DNA of 64,000 nt, from assembly GCF_023715655.1 (NCBI RefSeq), contig NZ_JAMBON010000016.1, positions 1-64,000 on the forward strand, given 5' to 3'. This DNA is from Oceanobacillus luteolus (GTDB taxonomy: Bacteria; Bacillota; Bacilli; Bacillales; Amphibacillaceae). Shown here one piece after another: positions 8,820 to 44,391 of this stretch. Positions within the stretch are counted from its first letter, which is position 1; every line of letters begins with the position of its first letter. The translations under genes and the position numbers were made by a program. The notes under the pieces were generated by a model. That model was not told where the DNA came from. It saw only the letters and a list, made by a program, of their open reading frames with translations, and did not search any database.

Positions 8820-9797
8820 TTGCGTAAATTAGCTATCGTAATCTTCATTTGTGTTTGTCTTACCCTATCTTATTTTACGATTGTGTCAGCAAGTAAAGTG
8901 TTTAAGACGGATTGGGAGTTGCCTCAATCAACAGAACAGGTGGATACGAAGCAACGACTCGTATTAATCACTCAGGAACTTGAGACTCCTTTTTGGGACA
9001 AGGTTGCAACTGGTGCAATGGATGAAGCGGAGAAGGAAGGGGTTAGTCTAGAAGTTTGGGGAAGCTACGGCAACAATCAAGAAGAGTTTTTGAAGCAAAT
9101 TGAAATCGCTATCTATTCACAAATGGATGGAATTATTCTACAAGGGCTGGACACAGATGAGTTTAAAAACTTGACCAAAATAAAAGCTGCTTCATACGGA
9201 ATTCCTATTATAACTGTTGCCAATGATGTTCCGATGGGAGATAGTCTTAGGAAATCATATGTAGGATCGAACCATTATGAGGCTGGAAAAATGATTGGGG
9301 AGCAATTAATAGCAGATATGGGCACGGTTGGAGAAGTAGCTGTTATGATTGATAAACAGCATCAATACTTCCAAGAACAGCGATTAGAAGGCATTAGAGA
9401 GGTGCTGCAAAGGTATCCAACTATCGATATTCATTATATTGAAACAGAGGATACGAGGAAAGAAGTCATTGCAACTACGAAAGATGTCTTGAACCGAAAT
9501 CCTAATATAAATGCTTTTATCGTAGTCAACGTGGAAATACTTGCTGCCATGATTAATGAGATAGAAAGAAGATCACAAATTGAGCCTTATTTTATTTATT
9601 CTTTTGATGATGATTATGAATCAATCACATTACTAAAACAGGGGAAGGTTGATGGAATCATTGAGCAGGCCCCTGAAGAGATGGGAAAGATGAGTGTGAA
9701 GCTGATTTTGGACTGGCTTAATAATAAGAAAGTGCCCCTTGATTTGGAAGGATATCAAACGGACATTAAGATTATAAAGGCGAATGATGAAAAATGA
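8820..9797 (+). CDS. Extracytoplasmic sugar-sensing protein (periplasmic-binding fold)
   Basis: 325 residues. An N-terminal hydrophobic segment (residues 4-24) has no lipobox and is followed by a type I periplasmic-binding domain (Peripla_BP_4): LVLITQELETPFWDKVATGAM, GIILQGLDTDEF, IPIITVANDVPMGDS, YVGSNHYEAGKMIGEQL. The stop overlaps the start of a YesM-type sensor kinase by four bases, so it is translationally coupled to the kinase rather than to a transporter. This matches three-component systems such as XylFII-LytS/YesN of clostridia, where the binding protein presents sugar to the kinase. Start TTG 8820 follows GAAGGGTGATGGG; no ATG lies in a better place. Ligand unknown, probably a pentose or another monosaccharide. 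Confidence 0.82.
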   Translation: MRKLAIVIFICVCLTLSYFTIVSASKVFKTDWELPQSTEQVDTKQRLVLITQELETPFWDKVATGAMDEAEKEGVSLEVWGSYGNNQEEFLKQIEIAIYSQMDGIILQGLDTDEFKNLTKIKAASYGIPIITVANDVPMGDSLRKSYVGSNHYEAGKMIGEQLIADMGTVGEVAVMIDKQHQYFQEQRLEGIREVLQRYPTIDIHYIETEDTRKEVIATTKDVLNRNPNINAFIVVNVEILAAMINEIERRSQIEPYFIYSFDDDYESITLLKQGKVDGIIEQAPEEMGKMSVKLILDWLNNKKVPLDLEGYQTDIKIIKANDEK

Positions 9798-11257
9798 ACA
9801 GTATCCAGAAAAAGATACTGGTACTCGTAATAGCTGTTTTGTTCATTATGGTGATTATTTGGACTTCGTTAACCTATTACAATCAAAAAATGCAGTACCA
9901 GTACAACAATATACTAGAACGCTATTTAATAATGAATGAGGTAACTAATGAAAGTCAGCAAATTGTGGCAACCCTCAATAATTATATCATTGATCCAACA
10001 GCAGCTAATTTGGATGAGATAAATAAAAGTAAAACTAAGATCCTCAGCACGAAGGACGAGGTCATGAAATTCAGGAATACGGATAATAATTATGTACTGA
10101 CAAGCTATGAAAATTTAATAGATAGTTTAGTTGAAATCATGGAACAATCTGTTTTGGCACGTTCAGAGCAACAAACAGAAGATTATTTGAATGCGCTGTC
10201 AGAGGCAAGTCGTATTTCAAAATATATTTCTGAAATGACTCTTACGATCATCGACAAGGAACTCAATACGTATAAACGTGTTTACCGCAGCATGATTAAC
10301 AATTCAGAGGAGTTACTCAAACTGGGAATTTGGTTATTACCTCTAATTACGATGTTATTATTGTTATTTGCGCATCTGTTTTCCAAAAGAATAACAAAAC
10401 CAATCAATGAATTGACTCAAGCAGCACATGAGCTGTCTTTAGGACGTTTTGATTTAGAGGTGGAGGTTAATTCAAATGATGAAATCTCATTTTTAGCTAA
10501 AATGTTCGATAAGATGCGGATTAATATTAATAATTATTTATCTGAAATCAAACAGAAGGCACAGTTGGAAAATGAGCTTCAGCAAAGCAAACTGTTACTG
10601 CAAGAAAGTCAACTTCGTAGTTTGCAAAGTCAAATCAACCCTCACTTTCTTTATAATACACTGGACATGCTATCTAAAAAGGCATATATAGAAGATGCAG
10701 AAGAAACTAGTGATCTGTTAGTCAATGTTGCAGAGCTTCTGCGCTATAATCTGAACAAGCTGGAGAATTCCGCCTCGCTTTTTGAAGAGGTGCAGGTATT
10801 GAATCAATACATGAATATACAAAATACAAGATTCATTGATCGGCTGCAATTTCATTTGGATATTGATGAATCGTGTTTAGACGTACAAATTCCTCGGTTA
10901 ACTTTACAGCCGATTGTTGAAAACGCTATCATACATGCGATCGAGCCGGTTGAAGATGGAGGAAGTATTTGGTTCCGCATTATCGAGGAGCTTGAACATG
11001 TGAGAATAGAAATTGAAGATGATGGGCCGGGGATGACGGAAGAAAAAGTACAGCAGATGCTTCAATTGAAAAAGACAAAGTCGGAAGGGCATTTTACGGG
11101 AATCGGGATTAGTAATGTCGTGAAACGATTAAGTTTGTTCTATAACAATCATGATGTTTTTGATATCGAAAGCAAAGTGGGAATCGGAACAAAGATTATT
11201 TTGAAAATACCAAAAACGGGGAGAGTGGAAGACAGTGAAACGACTCCTGATAGTTGA
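9794..11257 (+). CDS. YesM/LytS-like sensor histidine kinase
   Basis: 487 residues. The protein has TM1 at residues 8-28, an extracellular domain of about 150 residues, TM2 at about 177-195, a HAMP linker (RITKPINELTQAAHELSLG), the His_kinase domain (PF06580) with LQSQINPHFLYNTLD and the phospho-acceptor His284, then a HATPase with PIVENAIIHAI, DDGPGM and GIGISNVVKRL. It overlaps the sensor-protein gene by four bases and the regulator gene by 23 bases, so the three are one unit. The predicted job is to read the ligand state of the 8820 protein and phosphorylate the 11235 regulator. All the usual kinase motifs are present. Confidence 0.9.
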   Translation: MNSIQKKILVLVIAVLFIMVIIWTSLTYYNQKMQYQYNNILERYLIMNEVTNESQQIVATLNNYIIDPTAANLDEINKSKTKILSTKDEVMKFRNTDNNYVLTSYENLIDSLVEIMEQSVLARSEQQTEDYLNALSEASRISKYISEMTLTIIDKELNTYKRVYRSMINNSEELLKLGIWLLPLITMLLLLFAHLFSKRITKPINELTQAAHELSLGRFDLEVEVNSNDEISFLAKMFDKMRININNYLSEIKQKAQLENELQQSKLLLQESQLRSLQSQINPHFLYNTLDMLSKKAYIEDAEETSDLLVNVAELLRYNLNKLENSASLFEEVQVLNQYMNIQNTRFIDRLQFHLDIDESCLDVQIPRLTLQPIVENAIIHAIEPVEDGGSIWFRIIEELEHVRIEIEDDGPGMTEEKVQQMLQLKKTKSEGHFTGIGISNVVKRLSLFYNNHDVFDIESKVGIGTKIILKIPKTGRVEDSETTPDS

Positions 11258-12785
11258 CGATGAACAGATTGTGAGGGAAGGATTACAAGCAATAGTATCC
11301 AAGAACTTCCCCGAGATTCAAATTGAAGATGCAAGAAATGGGAAGATTGCATTAGAAAAGGCTATTACATTTCAGCCAGAATTGGTGTTGATGGATATTA
11401 AGATGCCGGGAATGAACGGACTTGAAACGATACAGAAAATGATGGAAATAGATCCCCACATCAAGTTTATCATGATTACGGCCTATGCTGAATTTGATTA
11501 CGCCAAATCGGCAATGAAGTTAGGTGTGAAAGATTACTTGCTCAAGCCAAGTAAAGCAAGTGAAGTCGTAAAAGCGGTCAGCAGAGTGATGAGCAAAATA
11601 AAAGAGGAAAAGAAATCAAAGGAAAAGAGCCTCCAGCAACAAACTGTTTTACAGAAGGCATTAACAATCGTAGAAACGGATGTTGTAACACAGTTATTAT
11701 TCGACCATGTACATGAAGTCCATTTGGAGGAGTTAGTGGAATTATTAGATACACCGATGACAAGTGAAAAGTTTGTGATGAGTATCTTATTACCGCATGA
11801 TTCCAAAAGTCTGTATGCAGAAATTAAACAACGTGTCAGAAAAATAGGAAGTGCATGGGTTGGTACATTGTATGGACGACAAATCCCTATTATTGTGTTT
11901 AGGAAACCTGATGAGTCTTTTCGCTCTCAAGCGATTACACTTGCAAGAGAGGTTTTATCTGTAGCAAACACAACTGATAAAGAAGGTTGGTTCATCGGAA
12001 TAGGGAATGTCTGTCATTCATTGGACACGATACGTCAATCGTACCAAGAATCACTTATAGCTACGAAAGACAGCTCCTTACCTGTAAAATATCGTTTTTA
12101 TTCTGATATTCCAGTAGCTGATACGATTAATAAAGGATATCATTCGAAAAAGCATGAAAGTCAATTGTTTGATCAAATTCGAAATGGTCAATGGCAGGAT
12201 ATTTCCGAGGAAATAATAGGTATTATTGAGTTTCATGAAAAAAACGGTGTCCATCTTTTAGAAGCCCAGCAACGAGTCTTGGAAATACTATGGGTTGCCT
12301 CAAGGGTGTTGAATGAGATCGGAGTTGAACTAGATTCCCCTTTATATTTTGTACAAATAAATGATTTTAAACAATTGCGAACGGAGTCGCTTCATTTGCT
12401 CAACCAAATGAAGCAGTCTTTCATCAAATACCAGAACCAAGTGGAAGATGACACGATTAAACAGGTTAGGCAGTATATCGTGGAAAACTCGCATAAACAG
12501 ATTTCCTTAGATGGGATTGCGCAAAAGTTCAAACTGAGCCCTATTTACATTAGTAAGCTTTTTAAAGAACAGTTAGGTGTGAACTATATTACCTTTTTGA
12601 CAGAATGTCGCTTAGAGCATGCAAGGAAGTTGATGTTGGATCCTGAAAAAAGTTTAAAGGAAGTTACGTTTGAGATTGGCTATCAAGACCCGAATTACTT
12701 TAGCAAGGTTTTTAGAAAAGTATATGGAGTATCTCCGACCGAATATAGAAAGTCGTTGCTGGTTGCTAAGACGGAAAGGACATAG
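11235..12785 (+). CDS. YesN-type response regulator with AraC DNA-binding domain
   Basis: 516 residues. Receiver domain 1-120 has acidic pocket Asp8-Asp9, phospho-acceptor Asp54 in VLMDIKMPGMNG, and Lys104 in DYLLKPSK. A middle region of unknown fold follows (about 130-400), then two AraC-type HTHs at about 405-510 (ISLDGIAQKFKLSPIYISKLFKEQ and SLKEVTFEIGYQDPNYFSKVFRKV). Start GTG 11235 lies inside the kinase gene behind GGGGAGAG. Likely target: the binding-protein and ABC transporter genes downstream. No own terminator is seen before the next gene 16 bases on. Confidence 0.9.
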   Translation: MKRLLIVDDEQIVREGLQAIVSKNFPEIQIEDARNGKIALEKAITFQPELVLMDIKMPGMNGLETIQKMMEIDPHIKFIMITAYAEFDYAKSAMKLGVKDYLLKPSKASEVVKAVSRVMSKIKEEKKSKEKSLQQQTVLQKALTIVETDVVTQLLFDHVHEVHLEELVELLDTPMTSEKFVMSILLPHDSKSLYAEIKQRVRKIGSAWVGTLYGRQIPIIVFRKPDESFRSQAITLAREVLSVANTTDKEGWFIGIGNVCHSLDTIRQSYQESLIATKDSSLPVKYRFYSDIPVADTINKGYHSKKHESQLFDQIRNGQWQDISEEIIGIIEFHEKNGVHLLEAQQRVLEILWVASRVLNEIGVELDSPLYFVQINDFKQLRTESLHLLNQMKQSFIKYQNQVEDDTIKQVRQYIVENSHKQISLDGIAQKFKLSPIYISKLFKEQLGVNYITFLTECRLEHARKLMLDPEKSLKEVTFEIGYQDPNYFSKVFRKVYGVSPTEYRKSLLVAKTERT

Positions 12786-35297: not shown

Positions 35298-35882
35298 ATG
35301 AACGGAATGAACGAATGGATGCCAATTTCGCAAGTATCCCAAAAAGTGAACATACCTCCAGAAACAGTCAGACGCTATGCTAGACAATATGGATCTTATC
35401 TGGCTATGAAGCGAGGCGAAAAGAAAGCCTATCTTATCCATGAAAGTTCACTGGATACGATAAAAAGAATCCGGACTCTATTGGAACAGGGACACCAGCA
35501 TGGACAGGTGAAACTCTTGTTGAGGAACGAGAACGAAGCAAATGTTCACATAGAGAAAGAAGAAGCTGAACATGATCAAAAATTATCACAACAAATGATG
35601 AAAGAGATTCATATGCTTGTAGACCAGAATAAAAAGCTCATGAAATTGATGACCGAGATGCATGAACGGATGAATGTATACGAAGAAATATTGGAACAAC
35701 AGCAGCAGCTGGCTGTTACCTCTGAACAGGTGGATGAAACGATGAAAGAACAAAGGGATTATGAGAGAAAACGGGATGAATACTTGTTGAAAACGATGAA
35801 CGAAATGCAGGAAAAACGAAAAGAAAGTGCAAATCCGCGGGAAAAGAATAGGCTATTTACGAAACTCTTCAAATTGACTTGA
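35298..35882 (+). CDS. MerR-type HTH coiled-coil protein with DUF3967-like tail
   Basis: 194 residues. The N-terminal helix-turn-helix (WMPISQVSQKVNIPPETVRRYARQYG, residues about 7-32) is of MerR/RacA type. A long, charged coiled coil follows (about 85-160), then RDYERKRDEYLLKTMNEMQEKRK, which looks like DUF3967 (PF13152). Proteins of this build are frequent on Bacillus plasmids and also resemble the chromosome-anchoring protein RacA, so DNA binding plus scaffold or tether roles are possible. GAGGGGG precedes ATG 35298. It is convergent with the kinase gene of the peptide cassette and probably not part of it. Confidence 0.75.
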   Translation: MNGMNEWMPISQVSQKVNIPPETVRRYARQYGSYLAMKRGEKKAYLIHESSLDTIKRIRTLLEQGHQHGQVKLLLRNENEANVHIEKEEAEHDQKLSQQMMKEIHMLVDQNKKLMKLMTEMHERMNVYEEILEQQQQLAVTSEQVDETMKEQRDYERKRDEYLLKTMNEMQEKRKESANPREKNRLFTKLFKLT

Positions 35883-35889
35883 AAAAAAC

Positions 35890-35928
35890 TACAGTCCACA
35901 ACATTGAGCGGGTGGACTGTATTTTTCT
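35890..35928. terminator. Bidirectional terminator
   Basis: TACAGTCCAC (35890-35899) and GTGGACTGTA (35912-35921), a perfect 10-bp stem, T run on the plus side and TTTTTTTC on the minus side. It closes the peptide/ABC/kinase cassette. Confidence 0.85.
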
Positions 35929-36783
35929 TTAATGACTCTCCAGATAATTGAGGAAGAACTCATGAATCCGGAATGTTGTGGGCCGCTTGCCAGGTTGTAA
36001 ATCCAGGCAGCGGTTTATTAAATGAGCGAAATCTTCATCTAATTCCCGATGTTTTTGTACGGGTTGAGCAGCCCTTTTAAGCTGTTCGAAACTTCCATCC
36101 TCCATAGATTGAAATGGACGTTTAGCTGTTGCAGCAAAATAGAGGACTGCACCGATTCCCCATACGTCAGCAGCTGGGGTCAATTTGTCTCCTCGTGCCT
36201 GTTCCGGCGACATGTATTGTTTTGTCCCAATCCCTTTCCTCACCTCTCCAGGACGTGCTGCCAAATTAAGGTCGATGACTTTGGCAAGTGGAGGTTGGGA
36301 AATAATATTTGAGGGCTTTAAATCAAGATGTAAAATATTATTCAAATGAAGATAGTGGACGGCCGAGGTGAGCTGCATGCCGAGATGTGCCAACTGTTTC
36401 GCCGGCAGATAGGTATCTTCGGCTGCGAGATTCCTGACCAGACGGGAAAGTGTTTCTCCTGTTAAGGTTTCTTGTATCAGGACCGGTACTGGTATTTTCA
36501 CAATTTCATAGCCGCGGACAAGGTTTGGATGGGAGAGTTTCTTCAGGTACTCCCCTTCCTGAATCAGACGTTGCTTTGCTATTTCGCTCGTTGCGCAAGC
36601 GGGCTGCAAGGTCTTGGCGATACAACCTGTAAGCTTCTCTTCACTCCAAACATAATAGACGTCACAATCCTGGCCTCGCCGCATGTGGTGGATGACGGTG
36701 TAGCCAGGGATGAGTGTTTCCCCTTTTTGAAGAGGTTCAATCATTTCTTTGTTGTCTGTCCATTTCAAGTTATTCAAAAGCAT
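35929..36783 (-). CDS. Stand-alone Hanks-type Ser/Thr protein kinase
   Basis: 284 residues, a kinase domain and little else. Catalytic residues are present: Lys57 (IAK, the VAIK lysine), Glu76 (helix C), the loop HLDLKPSN (Asp154, Lys156, Asn159), Asp171 in DLN (in place of DFG) and GTKQYMSPEQ as activation/P+1 segment. The glycine-rich loop (MRRGQDCDVYYV) is degenerate. There is no transmembrane or PASTA part, unlike PrkC, so it is cytosolic. It is the last gene of a unit with an ABC exporter and three Ser-rich peptides. It is the only candidate peptide-modifying enzyme in that unit, and no lyase or cyclase domain is attached. AAGGAG precedes ATG 36783. Confidence 0.85.
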   Translation of the reverse strand: MLLNNLKWTDNKEMIEPLQKGETLIPGYTVIHHMRRGQDCDVYYVWSEEKLTGCIAKTLQPACATSEIAKQRLIQEGEYLKKLSHPNLVRGYEIVKIPVPVLIQETLTGETLSRLVRNLAAEDTYLPAKQLAHLGMQLTSAVHYLHLNNILHLDLKPSNIISQPPLAKVIDLNLAARPGEVRKGIGTKQYMSPEQARGDKLTPAADVWGIGAVLYFAATAKRPFQSMEDGSFEQLKRAAQPVQKHRELDEDFAHLINRCLDLQPGKRPTTFRIHEFFLNYLESH

Positions 36784-36818
36784 GATGTTTCAGCTCCTTA
36801 AATATTATTGATTTCCTT

Positions 36819-38678
36819 TTAGTTTGGAACTGCCTGCAAATGTTTTTTAGCTTCTGGCTGTGCATCAAACAGTTCCGCATACTTTCCACCATTTGCGAGC
36901 AATTCTTCATGTGTTCCGTTCTCCATTACTTTGCCGTCTTCGAGATAGAGAATTCTGTCCGCTCTAGCAGCACTTCTTAAATTATGTGTAATGATGAGAG
37001 TTGCTTTATCTTGCATTAATTGTTTCAAAGGATCCATAACCCGCTGTTCAGATTTTGCATCAAGCCCTTCTGTTGGTTCGTCGAGGATTAAGATGGATGC
37101 ATTGCGGATAATGGCTCTTGCTATAGCAATTCGCTGGCGTTGACCACCGGATAAATTTCTGCCTTTTTGGCCGACGTGGGTATCATATCCTTCCGATAAT
37201 TCAATAATGAAGTCATGCGCCCCGGCTCTTTTGGCGGCTTCTACGATTTGCTCATCAGTCGCTTCAGATTTTCCATAGGCGATATTTTCTCTTACAGTCC
37301 CATCAAAGATCAAGGATTCCTGGAAAAGGACAGCAACATTATCCCGGAGTGATTCAAGACTCACTCCTTTAATCACATTTCCGTCGACAAGGATTCTTCC
37401 TTCTGTCGGATCGTAAAAACGCATCAACAATTTCACAATCGTGGATTTGCCGGTTCCGCTTGCCCCGACAAGAGCGACAGATTCACCGGGTTCAATGGAA
37501 AATGTGACGTCAGACAATACTTTTTTCTTTTTGCCTGGATAAGAAAAGGAAACGTGATCAAACTCTACACGGCCCGTTGGCTCTTCCATAATATAGGGAG
37601 CTTCTTTGATTATTGGTTTTTCGTCCATAAATTCAATGACCCGCTCGGCGCTTGCAGATGCGGAATAAATCGTATTCAGTAATCTGCTGAGACCGCGGAC
37701 CGGTCGGTAAAGTTTATTTAATAATGTCATGAAAGCTACCAGGCCTCCGATGGTGAGCTCACCTTGAATGAGAAGCATCGCTCCAACAGCCATTACAGCG
37801 AGTGTTCCGAACGTTTCAATCAGACTGACGACTGGAGAAAATGCGGCTTTCAGACGGACTTTCAACATTTTGGCATCAAAGCTGCGTCGGTTTTGCAGAT
37901 CAAAACGTTCAGCTTCTGCCTCTTGTTGGTTATACGCTTGCATCAAGGCAATATTTGAAAAACTCTCTTCTGAAATGGAGTTGATTGCCCCTTCTCGACG
38001 GGTCCTTTCCCGCGAGGCCATTTTAATTCTTTTCGAGAAAAACCGTGTCACTACATAAAATAAAGGTACGACGATTAGTGAAACGAAAGCCAATTTCCAT
38101 TGCATGAAAAACAGCATGGTTATAAAAACAATGAGCTGACTAAAATATGATACAGCCGATGTCGCTCCTGTAATAATCAGCCGTTCAATGGAAGCAATAT
38201 CACTCGACATCCGTGAAATGATATCACCAAGTTTCCGTTTTTCAAAAAAGTGGAGCGATAGACCTTGTAAATGTTCATACAGCCCTTTTCGCAATGAAAG
38301 AATAAAATTCTCCCCGACCCAATTGGACATATACGTACCACCGAAATATAAAGTCCCGCGAAGAACTGTCAGGCAGAAGTACGCTAGAATAATTCCGTAG
38401 ATGGCATTAAATTGTTGAGGGACCAGAACGTGATCGATAAAGTCCTGCAAGAGCCAAACAGTACCTGATTGGACGACTGGCTGTAAAATAATCAACAGTA
38501 AACTAAATAGAATCCAGAAACGGTATGGCTTGGCATATGGCCAGAACCTGCGGAATATTTCTTTTACAGGGACAGGTGGGGACTCGGAAATAAGGTTATC
38601 CTCTATGTTTCTAACTTTCCATAAATCCCTGAACTTTTGCCGGGAGTGTTTTTTTCTTTTATTATTCCGTTGCCTCAT
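36819..38678 (-). CDS. ABC exporter, fused membrane-ATPase (ABCB/LmrA-like)
   Basis: 619 residues. A basic N-terminal arm (RQRNNKRKKHSRQKFRD) precedes a six-helix exporter domain (about 60-340) and one ABC domain with Walker A GASGTGKST, Q-loop FQES, signature LSGGQRQRIAIARA, Walker B ILILDEPTEGLD and the H-loop ITHN. It should act as a dimer. No C39 peptidase domain is present, so leader removal, if any, needs another protease. Its position between three tandem peptide genes and a kinase makes peptide export the likely job; drug export is the alternative from sequence alone. ATG 38678 has AAAGGGGTGA eight bases upstream; GTG 38690 is less likely. Confidence 0.85.
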   Translation of the reverse strand: MRQRNNKRKKHSRQKFRDLWKVRNIEDNLISESPPVPVKEIFRRFWPYAKPYRFWILFSLLLIILQPVVQSGTVWLLQDFIDHVLVPQQFNAIYGIILAYFCLTVLRGTLYFGGTYMSNWVGENFILSLRKGLYEHLQGLSLHFFEKRKLGDIISRMSSDIASIERLIITGATSAVSYFSQLIVFITMLFFMQWKLAFVSLIVVPLFYVVTRFFSKRIKMASRERTRREGAINSISEESFSNIALMQAYNQQEAEAERFDLQNRRSFDAKMLKVRLKAAFSPVVSLIETFGTLAVMAVGAMLLIQGELTIGGLVAFMTLLNKLYRPVRGLSRLLNTIYSASASAERVIEFMDEKPIIKEAPYIMEEPTGRVEFDHVSFSYPGKKKKVLSDVTFSIEPGESVALVGASGTGKSTIVKLLMRFYDPTEGRILVDGNVIKGVSLESLRDNVAVLFQESLIFDGTVRENIAYGKSEATDEQIVEAAKRAGAHDFIIELSEGYDTHVGQKGRNLSGGQRQRIAIARAIIRNASILILDEPTEGLDAKSEQRVMDPLKQLMQDKATLIITHNLRSAARADRILYLEDGKVMENGTHEELLANGGKYAELFDAQPEAKKHLQAVPN

Positions 38679-38705
38679 CAAACTGCTCACCCCTTTGTGA
38701 AGAAA

Positions 38706-38731
38706 GCGGCCCCTTCTGAGTCAGGAGCCGC
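38706..38731 (-). terminator. Intercistronic hairpin between peptide genes and exporter
   Basis: GCGGCCCC (38706-38713) and GGAGCCGC (38724-38731) pair over 8 bp with one G-U pair. On the minus strand TTTCTT follows. It is placed to let most transcripts stop after the peptide genes and some continue into the exporter and kinase. Confidence 0.6.
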
Positions 38732-38765
38732 ATCTTGTTTATTCCTGTATAGAAGCCTTTGGCAT

Positions 38766-38885
38766 TTAAGAATCGCTGTTACTGTAACTGTTGCTATAGC
38801 TGAAGCTTTCACTATCACTGTTGCTGTAACTTACAGAAGTGACTTCTTCAGCCGCAGCTGGTGTTAATCCATCAAAGTAAGTCAT
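38766..38885 (-). CDS. Ser-alternating small peptide, copy C (39 aa)
   Basis: Third of three tandem minus-strand genes. It starts with the constant MTYFDGLTPAAAEEVTS, then from residue 17 to 39 every odd residue is Ser (first part VSYSNSDSES, end NSYSNSDS), with V, Y, N, D, E and F in between. It differs from copy A at residue 18 (Val for Tyr). GAGAGGAGGGAACCG precedes ATG 38885. No Cys, no Thr in the tail, no membrane segment. The predicted gene is far below usual annotation length, but SD, repetition and selection of the reading frame in three copies (mostly silent differences) argue that it is real. Likely a modified and exported peptide precursor. Confidence 0.8.
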   Translation of the reverse strand: MTYFDGLTPAAAEEVTSVSYSNSDSESFSYSNSYSNSDS

Positions 38886-38922
38886 CTTGCGGTTCCCTCC
38901 TCTCTTAATTCAACGCTTTAGT

Positions 38923-39036
38923 TTAGGAATCACTGTTACTGTAGCTATTGCTAAAGCTTTCACTATCGCTGTTGCTATAGCTATAAGAAGTAACCTCTTC
39001 AGCCGCGGCTGGTGTCAGTCCATCGAAATAAGTCAT
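38923..39036 (-). CDS. Ser-alternating small peptide, copy B (37 aa)
   Basis: Second tandem copy, with the same 17-residue N-terminus. The tail is two residues shorter: one Tyr-Ser unit after SESFS is missing, so the Ser-X alternation stays in register. Loss of exactly one dipeptide keeps both frame and periodicity, which suggests the periodicity matters. GAGAGGAGGGAACTG precedes ATG 39036. Unit length to copy C is 151 bases and to copy A 156 bases. The intergenic spacers are also similar, so the array arose by recent tandem duplication. Confidence 0.8.
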   Translation of the reverse strand: MTYFDGLTPAAAEEVTSYSYSNSDSESFSNSYSNSDS

Positions 39037-39072
39037 TTGCAGTTCCCTCCTCTCTTCGTTCAATGTTGTAGT

Positions 39073-39192
39073 TTAGGAATCACTGTTGCTGTAGCTATTG
39101 CTATAGCTGAAGCTTTCACTATCGCTGTTGCTGTAACTATAAGAAGTAACCTCTTCAGCTGCAGCTGGCGTCAATCCATCAAAGTAAGTCAT
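39073..39192 (-). CDS. Ser-alternating small peptide, copy A (39 aa)
   Basis: First gene of the minus-strand unit, behind a very strong AAGGAGGTG seven bases before ATG 39192. N-terminal part MTYFDGLTPAAAEEVTS is mildly hydrophobic then acidic and could be a leader or recognition sequence. From Ser17 to Ser39 serine occupies every odd position (YSYSNSDSES, FSYS, NSYSNSDS). In an extended strand all serines would face one side and Tyr, Asn, Asp, Glu and Phe the other. The peptide ends in Ser. No known RiPP core signature is present: no Cys for lanthionine, no lasso-type Gly1/Asp ring. Serine phosphorylation or dehydration by the 35929 kinase is a hypothesis. Confidence 0.82.
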   Translation of the reverse strand: MTYFDGLTPAAAEEVTSYSYSNSDSESFSYSNSYSNSDS

Positions 39193-39460: not shown

Positions 39461-39488
39461 GTTTCCGATGCAATATAGATTTTGTATT

Positions 39489-39669
39489 CCCTCTTGAAGT
39501 GGGAAATCTCCCGCAGGGTCATGTGAGGGTTTCTCACGTTCCCTCATGAAGTGAAAAAGCGCCAATGGGGGCATGTGAGTCCATCTCACATGCCCTCTCG
39601 AAGTCTAAAACCTCCCGCGAGGGCACGTGAGACATCCTTACGCGCCCTCTGACATCAAAAGTCAGCCCC
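39489..39669. repeat. 52-bp tandem repeat array with internal hairpins
   Basis: Three full units at 39489-39540, 39541-39592 and 39593-39644, each beginning CCCTC(N)(N)GAAGT and each exactly 52 bases, plus a partial fourth (39645-39669). Each unit boundary can fold; the best is GGGCATGTGAG, 5-nt loop, CTCACATGCCC (perfect 11-bp stem across units 2 and 3). Units are about 60-70% alike by eye. It is more GC-rich than its surroundings and lies just downstream of the lipoprotein gene. Confidence 0.8.
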
Positions 39670-39718
39670 TTAAGGGTATGCAAGCTATTGTTGTGTCAAT
39701 ATCAAGCCTATTGAAAGC

Positions 39719-43180: not shown

Positions 43181-44391
43181 TTGATTTCAGCACGTAAAAG
43201 AAATGGAATACTGGCGCTATTATTTCTAGGTTGGGCTTTAGGAAATTTAGATAGATATATTATGAACTATGCGGTCGTTGCAATTACGGAGGATTTAAAT
43301 TTAAGTGCTTCATCCACGGGACTTCTGCTTAGCAGCTTTTTTCTAGGGTATGCGCTGATGCAGCTTCCTGGAGGCTGGTTGGCAGACCGCTTTGGTGCCC
43401 GGAGAGTTCTCATCGCCGCTGTCATATTATGGTCAATATTTACCGGTTTGACAGGGGTGGCGTGGTCACTTGCTTCCATGGTCGTTATCCGTTTCCTTTT
43501 CGGAATTGGTGAAGGTGGATTCCAGCCTGCGAGTTCAAAAATTATTTCTCAAGGATTTCCACATGATCAACGGGCGCGGGCAATGTCCATTATGTTATCG
43601 TCTGCCGGGATAACCGCGCTTATCGTGCCGCTGCTTTCGGTTGGATTGCTCACTGCAATCGGTTGGCGGATGACATTTATTATTTTTGGGTTAATTGGAG
43701 CTGTTATTGCAATATTGTACTGGTACTTTATCAAGCTGCCGAACAGTGTAGACGAATCAAATGCAAAAAATACTAGTACGACTACTGCAGCGCCTTTCAA
43801 ACTACTGTTCAAGACTCCCCTCATGCTGAATTTATTTATTGCTTATTTCACTTTGTATGCGGTGAACTGGCGACATGGATTCCTACGTACTTGGTAACTG
43901 TACGGGAACTTGATTTGTTTTCAATGGGATGGATGCAGACGATCCCTGGTGTGGCGCAACTTATAGGGATGTATACTGCAGGATATATTATCGATAAGTT
44001 GTCAGGAGGCCGGGAAAAAGTTGCAGGGGCTTTCGCCTGTGTTGCTATTTCCGTTTTATTGTATTTCATGTTTACGGCTTCAAGTGTAGCGGCTTTTATC
44101 GTGTATCAAACGATTATTATGTTAGTTCTTTCTTTTGTTGTTATTCTGCTTCCGGCCATTGTGCTTAAAAAACTACCGACTTCGGTAGCTGGCTCTGGGA
44201 TGGGGCTGGTGAACACAGGTGGACAGCTTGCTGGATTCATCACACCGCTTGCGATTGGGTTCATCGTTGATTTATTCAATGGTTCCTTTAATGCAGCGTT
44301 TTGGATGTTGATTATTTTTGCCTTTATCTGCGCAATATCCCTAGCTACGATCAACTATGAGAAAGGTGAATTACTGAAGAATCCATCTTGA
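43181..44391 (+). pseudogene. MFS transporter (ACS-like), single frameshift
   Basis: Twelve-helix MFS protein split by a small deletion near 43868. The first part begins TTG 43181 (behind AGGGGGAAG) and carries LGNLDRYIMNYAVVAITEDL and the loop LADRFGARRV typical of anion:cation symporters. After YAVNW the frame is lost, and the rest continues one frame over as ATWIPTYLVTVRELDLFSMG to the stop at 44391. A handful of bases (about seven) seem missing; both halves are otherwise well preserved, so the lesion is recent or a sequencing error. It is followed after 26 bases by an AbgB-like amidohydrolase, so it probably imported that enzyme's substrate. Confidence 0.85.

Follow-up and report, generated by a model that had tools for sequence, protein, structure and literature searches.

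In the first 64,000 nucleotides of contig NZ_JAMBON010000016.1 of Oceanobacillus luteolus (GCF_023715655.1, positions 1-64,000; this whole stretch is called the window), we found a gene cassette at 35929-39192, which encodes three small peptides, an ATP-binding cassette (ABC) exporter and a stand-alone Ser/Thr kinase. Judging from sequence comparison, we believe that it is a modification and export cassette like those of ribosomally synthesized and post-translationally modified peptides (RiPPs), one in which the kinase, guided by a leader on the peptide, would be the sole modifying enzyme and the ABC protein would export the phosphopeptide. We give this reading a probability of roughly 0.58. 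A first-pass annotation of the window had described three tandem peptides of 37-39 aa, a hairpin, an ABC exporter, a kinase and a terminator as a single minus-strand unit, and the open reading frames (ORFs) and Pfam matches agree with it. It had further proposed that the kinase phosphorylates a serine face of the peptides. Conservation strengthened this idea, but its centre is now the leader and the kinase, not the serine face.

Relatives of the cassette were found at 10 further loci, making 11 with the window. Peptides, ABC and kinase occur together at 8 loci: the window, O. senegalensis, genome G119, Bhargavaea cecembensis, Jeotgalicoccus psychrophilus, J. aerolatus, Jeotgalicoccus G909 and plasmid SNP1 of Streptomyces nigrescens. 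After the window, the numbers of peptide genes in these loci were 5 (in tandem), 2, 3, 2, 2, 1 (the only one found) and 1, respectively. The ABC and kinase of O. senegalensis were 75% and 70% identical to those of the window, respectively. The association of the three parts, on whose conservation the first-pass annotation had staked its proposal, therefore extends across genera and two phyla (7 further full loci). The S. cathayae plasmid has the peptide, and its ABC and kinase are not single frames in the deposited record. Lentibacillus populi carries the peptide and kinase pair only, and its genome has no cassette-type ABC (best ABC 35% identical). The G137 locus (L066:7808-8083) holds a peptide beginning MIYFGNLSPASSSS and a hairpin, together with a frame of 37 aa and no ABC between; 23 residues of this frame match the N-terminus of the window kinase (39%, E 0.012 in a 9-sequence database, a weak match), and we regard the locus as probably the remnant of a decayed unit.

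The unit is uncommon. The peptide search matched 2 of 98 genomes, the source genome included and O. senegalensis being the second. With the kinase as query, matches came from 4 of 159 family genomes, 1 of 397 at order level, 3 of 9 Jeotgalicoccus genomes, 1 of 17 from the genus that includes G119 and 1 of 250 from the Bhargavaea family. At class level, 1 of 398 genomes scored above 130 bits, and four others at 115-126 bits look generic. Each of these counts includes the source genome or the genome on which the search was centred. A first scan of named genomes gave no locus and a second gave 5, two of them previously found; both scans rest on short conserved patterns. Plasmid records yielded the two Streptomyces members among 3 matched. 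No cassette relative appeared in two pattern-limited viral scans, and a phage search gave no member, with two phage records holding merely a 28-29% identical kinase. Leader-motif matches outside cassettes were set aside, since they were long unrelated proteins or short chance frames, the G137 locus excepted. Because the unit is rare and scattered, horizontal transfer is suggested by these distributions. The flanking genes, compared by eye in ORF lists, differ by genus and also between the window and O. senegalensis, and are shared by the three Jeotgalicoccus loci; family scans of flanks covered the window neighbours. Since the flanks differ, the unit ends with the kinase, and the ORF lists show no extra gene inside it at the other loci.

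The conserved part of the peptides is the N-terminus. All 11 loci encode peptides with a common leader, M-x-x-[FL]-x-x-h-x-P-A, which precedes a variable core without Cys. In an alignment of 11 peptides from 10 loci, M1, P9 and A10 were invariant and residue 4 was F, once L; the mean identity was 0.48 for residues 2-10 and 0.29 for the core at its best offset. For the intact Bacillota peptides (n = 8), the identities of leader and core were 0.57 and 0.37, respectively. The peptide of G909, the eleventh locus, also matches the leader pattern. Start codons that fit the pattern are few in the Streptomyces loci (2 of 885 in one, 1 of 885 in the other), and in each locus one of them belongs to the gene directly preceding the ABC. 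On these alignments the peptides are of leader and core anatomy, and a conserved leader and a variable core beside a co-inherited enzyme are what is expected of a RiPP.

In the window, peptide genes 1 (39073-39192, 39 aa, leader MTYFDGLTPA and a Ser-alternating core), 2 (38923-39036, 37 aa) and 3 (38766-38885, 39 aa) lie in tandem on the minus strand, each preceded by a GGAGG ribosome-site-like sequence. Their products matched no Pfam or NCBIfam family, and neither did seven of the eight relative peptides tested against NCBIfam; the His-rich peptide of S. cathayae gave three weak NCBIfam matches (at most 17.6 bits), far below the cut-off. Between copies 1 and 3 there were 11 synonymous base differences and 3 in changed codons (dN 0.028, dS 0.985), and the copies are under strong purifying selection. 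The Ser-x-Ser motif occurs 11 times in copy 1, compared with a shuffle mean of 2.8 (0 of 20,000 shuffles as high). Because of both the dN/dS between these copies and the Ser-x-Ser excess, we believe that the peptide genes are not chance frames.

Across the family, the peptides are 32-58 aa long, with cores of 22-48 residues that have a hydrophobic fraction of 0.02-0.25, are probably disordered and, like the leaders, contain no Cys (21 of 21 peptides). The Bacillota leaders have no GG motif, and the Bacillota cores are mostly acidic, with 6-15 Ser beside Asp/Glu or Asn/Gly. The Streptomyces cores are rich in His-Gly-Asp or Arg-Asp-Gly-His, with 3-4 Ser/Thr near the core start. The two Streptomyces plasmid peptides (L043:6873-7049 and L042:6817-6978), which stand before the same ABC-kinase pair, are His-alternating or Arg/His/Asp-rich, not Ser-rich. 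Strict Ser alternation reached significance in three cases, the window, O. senegalensis and Bhargavaea. G119 and peptide 1 of J. psychrophilus were borderline (p 0.05-0.06), and the remaining peptides tested showed no significant alternation; none of those tested from Jeotgalicoccus or Lentibacillus reached significance. The alternating serine face, which the first-pass annotation took as essential, holds for some members only, and multiple Ser phosphorylation is not supported as the chemistry of the whole family, since the Streptomyces cores offer few Ser/Thr.

The kinase (35929-36783, minus strand, 284 aa) is a stand-alone Hanks-type protein that matches PF00069 at 126 bits; with an E threshold of 1, Pfam assigned it no families beyond PF00069, PF07714 and PF14531, the CotH family not being among them. 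K57, E76, H152, D154, K156, N159 and D171 were invariant in 8 aligned homologues, in accord with the earlier description of a Hanks kinase with all catalytic residues, with HLD in place of HRD and DLN in place of DFG; the glycine loop is atypical (MRRGQDCDVY). The predicted structure shows a bilobal protein-kinase fold with the catalytic residues and resembles PknB. Against NCBIfam, the class IV synthetase LanL and the PknB-type PASTA kinase scored 97.1 and 95.2 bits, respectively, LanL being the top model; the window kinase stays far under the cut-offs of LanL (650, kinase 97) and LanKC (575, kinase 38.7). In the PDB, Nek7 led the best 60 of 2723 sequence matches, and the fold list held no lanthipeptide synthetase among 50 rows; neither result informs on lanthipeptide synthetases. 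Among PADLOC profiles, mad6 (E 1.4e-44, 151 bits) and PD-T4-6 (E 2.7e-35, 120 bits) matched the kinase, in a comparison without a control kinase. In the tree, 9 cassette kinases lay on one side of a branch (100/99) and 4 generic kinases on the other, with a long Streptomyces branch flagged for odd composition. The S. nigrescens kinase entered the alignments and trees shortened to 285 of the 359 residues of its frame, and that of S. cathayae was omitted because its frame is broken; the J. aerolatus rows of the alignments and the G909 row of the kinase/ABC identity comparison start one codon late. A Nonomuraea match (H3) has the canonical GEGGMG loop and was rejected as a generic kinase.

The exporter (36819-38681, minus strand) is a single-chain, MsbA-like protein with PF00664 and PF00005, of 620 aa from ATG or 623 aa from an alternative GTG start at 38690. 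It is 71-75% identical to the ABCs of two other cassettes, whereas all other ABCs matched in the five genomes searched were at most 37% identical, and by this comparison it is of a cassette-specific lineage. Among its 21 Pfam matches there was no C39 or other peptidase family. The identities of kinase and ABC correlate (r = 0.98 over 28 non-independent pairs of 8 loci; 0.97 without Streptomyces), and on these values the two genes diverge in step.

We propose that this unit most probably works in the following way. The N-terminal ten residues (M-x-x-F-x-x-h-x-P-A) would be the recognition leader for the kinase, which would phosphorylate Ser/Thr of the Cys-free core, at many sites in the Ser-rich Bacillota peptides and at few sites beside the leader in Streptomyces. 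The ABC protein would then secrete the phosphopeptide, with the leader retained or cut by an unlinked protease, and the hairpin after the peptide genes would maintain more transcript for the peptides than for ABC and kinase. The sequences themselves establish the unit and its conservation, the division into leader and core, purifying selection and the catalytic residues; leader recognition, phosphorylation, export and stoichiometry are all inferred. The product may be an extracellular metal-binding or signalling peptide, which is plausible because phospho-Ser/acidic and His-rich cores both bind cations. More tentatively, the loci might represent a cross-phylum class of ribosomal peptides, with one leader and enzyme pair, diverse cores and a leader-directed stand-alone kinase, whose final products are secreted, cation-binding or signalling phosphopeptides; we hold this broader proposal to be possible, at somewhat less than even odds.

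The G+C-rich hairpin in the spacer between peptides and ABC (38706-38731, minus strand; stem search and RNA fold) belongs to a recurrent pattern. In 10 of 10 loci, S. cathayae being left out, the spacer after the last peptide folds better than the shuffle mean, with z from -1.9 to -4.8. The window spacer is the weakest of these (z -1.88; 9 of 200 dinucleotide shuffles as good), and the 4 terminator-like sites of the region are not above the shuffle mean of 3.5. Because most spacers between peptide and next gene lack a long T-tract by eye, a processing or stabilising role of the hairpin seems as likely as attenuation.

Several observations weigh against the phosphopeptide reading. The Streptomyces cores, with just 1-2 Ser and 1-3 Thr past residue 10, are the chief argument against a simple poly-phosphoserine account; modification there is either confined to the Ser/Thr patch that follows the leader or of another chemistry, so substrate sites or even the reaction may not be the same in Streptomyces. 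The glycine-rich loop of the kinase is degenerate, and its AlphaFold model is moderate (mean pLDDT 70, catalytic-loop blocks 50-57). Since this ABC is absent from L. populi, not every member can rely on a linked exporter, and the unit contains no leader protease.

Phosphate might also be an intermediate, with a phospho-Ser lyase encoded elsewhere in the genome yielding dehydroalanine-rich linear peptides, lanthipeptide-like but without rings. In lanthipeptide classes II-V, phosphorylation is followed by elimination (PMC9486802), and LanL is the top NCBIfam model of the kinase, by a hair. As the first-pass annotation had stated, lyase, cyclase, Cys and peptidase are all missing: we found no lyase, cyclase or peptidase in the unit when 15 window proteins (5 cassette, 10 neighbourhood) were scanned, nor PF17914 (LanY/HopA1), the search for which covered these 15 proteins alone; no genome-wide search was aimed at HopA1- or OspF-type lyases. 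LanC was absent from the source genome and from 4 of 6 other member genomes; it was present in 2 of 7, both Jeotgalicoccus. A LanC-like gene (G541:C2:76350-77495, L031) lies some 5 kb away from the cassette of J. aerolatus; it was set aside as a partner because LanC occurs in 5 of 9 Jeotgalicoccus genomes, two of which (G904 and G910) have no cassette kinase. Taken with the peptides lacking Cys and the other units holding no further gene, we consider a transient phosphate unlikely.

The kinase could instead regulate the exporter or transcription, and the peptides might leave the cell without modification, acting for instance as pheromones or bacteriocins. In all 8 loci where both are intact, the ABC and kinase genes are neighbours, and they diverge in step, as such a role would have it. 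However, peptide and kinase persist together in L. populi where the ABC is absent, which argues for the peptide as the client of the kinase in preference to the ABC; the probable G137 remnant likewise has a kinase-like start after its peptide and hairpin and no ABC between. We think that a regulatory kinase is about as improbable as a transient phosphate. Still less probable is another transfer by the kinase-fold enzyme (AMPylation, glutamylation, or phosphorylation of His/Asp/Tyr), which would explain the range from Ser-rich to His-rich cores and is consistent with the degenerate glycine loop, with DLN for DFG and with the shift of core chemistry between phyla, but the phosphotransferase catalytic residues are invariant in the 8 aligned kinases and the predicted model resembles PknB. 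A pseudosubstrate or inhibitor role of the peptide, in a regulatory, toxin-antitoxin or defence pair without a secreted product, is just as improbable as this: a small peptide does stand beside a kinase, and mad6 beats Pfam Pkinase (151 and 126 bits), but Pfam scans of 15 window proteins revealed no other MADS part and no defence gene, mad3 and mad8 match only the ATPase domain of the ABC, the viral and phage searches gave no member, and multiple peptide copies with a dedicated exporter do not fit.

To return to the leader-guided kinase, its closest known counterparts, by analogy, are the LanK kinases of class V lanthipeptides and the polyphosphorylation of serine repeats by CotH. The first-pass annotation knew of no matching cluster class, a statement to be qualified, since a stand-alone kinase is already at work in class V lanthipeptides, together with a partner lyase (PMC9486802). 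That source describes LanK/LanY systems such as CaoK/CaoY of cacaoidin and lexapeptide, with a leader-core precursor; CaoK phosphorylates the precursor, and the leader was modelled on the kinase. They differ in having a HopA1-like lyase, which strips off the phosphate, and Cys residues that close rings, whereas the cassette has no Cys or unit lyase and has a dedicated ABC. The class III/IV enzymes (LanKC/LanL) also act on a leader peptide through a Ser/Thr-kinase domain, and in ThurKC the leader binds the kinase N-lobe (PMC10604976); they are three-domain lyase-kinase-cyclase proteins with Cys in the core, unlike the kinase-only, Cys-free cassette. His-crosslinked class III peptides were rejected as a match for the His-rich Streptomyces cores, since that cluster has a LanKC synthetase (PMC10206099).

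Phosphorylated lasso peptides arise from RiPP precursors phosphorylated on Ser by the tailoring kinases PadeK, ThcoK and PsmK (PMC9266682). Those systems modify the C-terminal Ser only, inside a lasso cluster, whereas no lasso cyclase, B1/B2 protease or other lasso synthetase gene was found in the 15 window proteins. PadeK is HprK-like, so its kinase family differs from that of the cassette kinase. In Bacillus subtilis, the gene of CotH is clustered with those of CotB/CotG, the Ser-repeat spore-coat proteins, and CotH polyphosphorylates their serine repeats (PMC7821199). The substrates of CotH, a Fam20C-related kinase of atypical type, are large coat proteins of the spore, whereas the cassette combines a PF00069 kinase, short peptides and an exporter. 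Jeotgalicoccus and Bhargavaea are not known to form endospores. Double-glycine systems with LanT-C39 exporters use a GG leader and a C39 domain, neither of which is present in the cassette. No description of such a cassette appeared among the titles and opening abstract lines listed by the literature searches, with bioRxiv and most subscription papers outside their scope.

The surroundings of the unit were also recorded. An intrinsic-terminator-like element, read from the sequence at 35881-35920 (minus strand), closes the head-to-tail unit with a 9-bp stem (ACAGTCCAC/GTGGACTGT) and a T-tract, 8 bases past the kinase stop; it is missing from the terminator-site scan, whose loop limit is 8. Imperfect repeats of the GAGGG..GTGAGA type (by eye) lie at 39462-39690, immediately upstream of the cassette. 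In O. senegalensis, a long masked stretch bordered by repetitive sequence lies upstream of the peptide genes (L006, about 9500-12500). An MFS transporter at 43181-44391 of the window is split into overlapping frames (43181-43897 and 43891-44391), either by a frameshift or by an error of assembly.

The kinase-based lanthipeptide classes known so far use phosphate as a transient leaving group; if our reading is true, the cassette would make phosphorylation the end product. A cassette of this type would escape searches keyed on lyases or cyclases. With two or three genes and a leader-guided kinase as the sole enzyme, it would offer a simple system for studying how a protein kinase recognises a leader, and because core composition changes while the leader stays conserved, the question of what the kinase recognises is directly testable.

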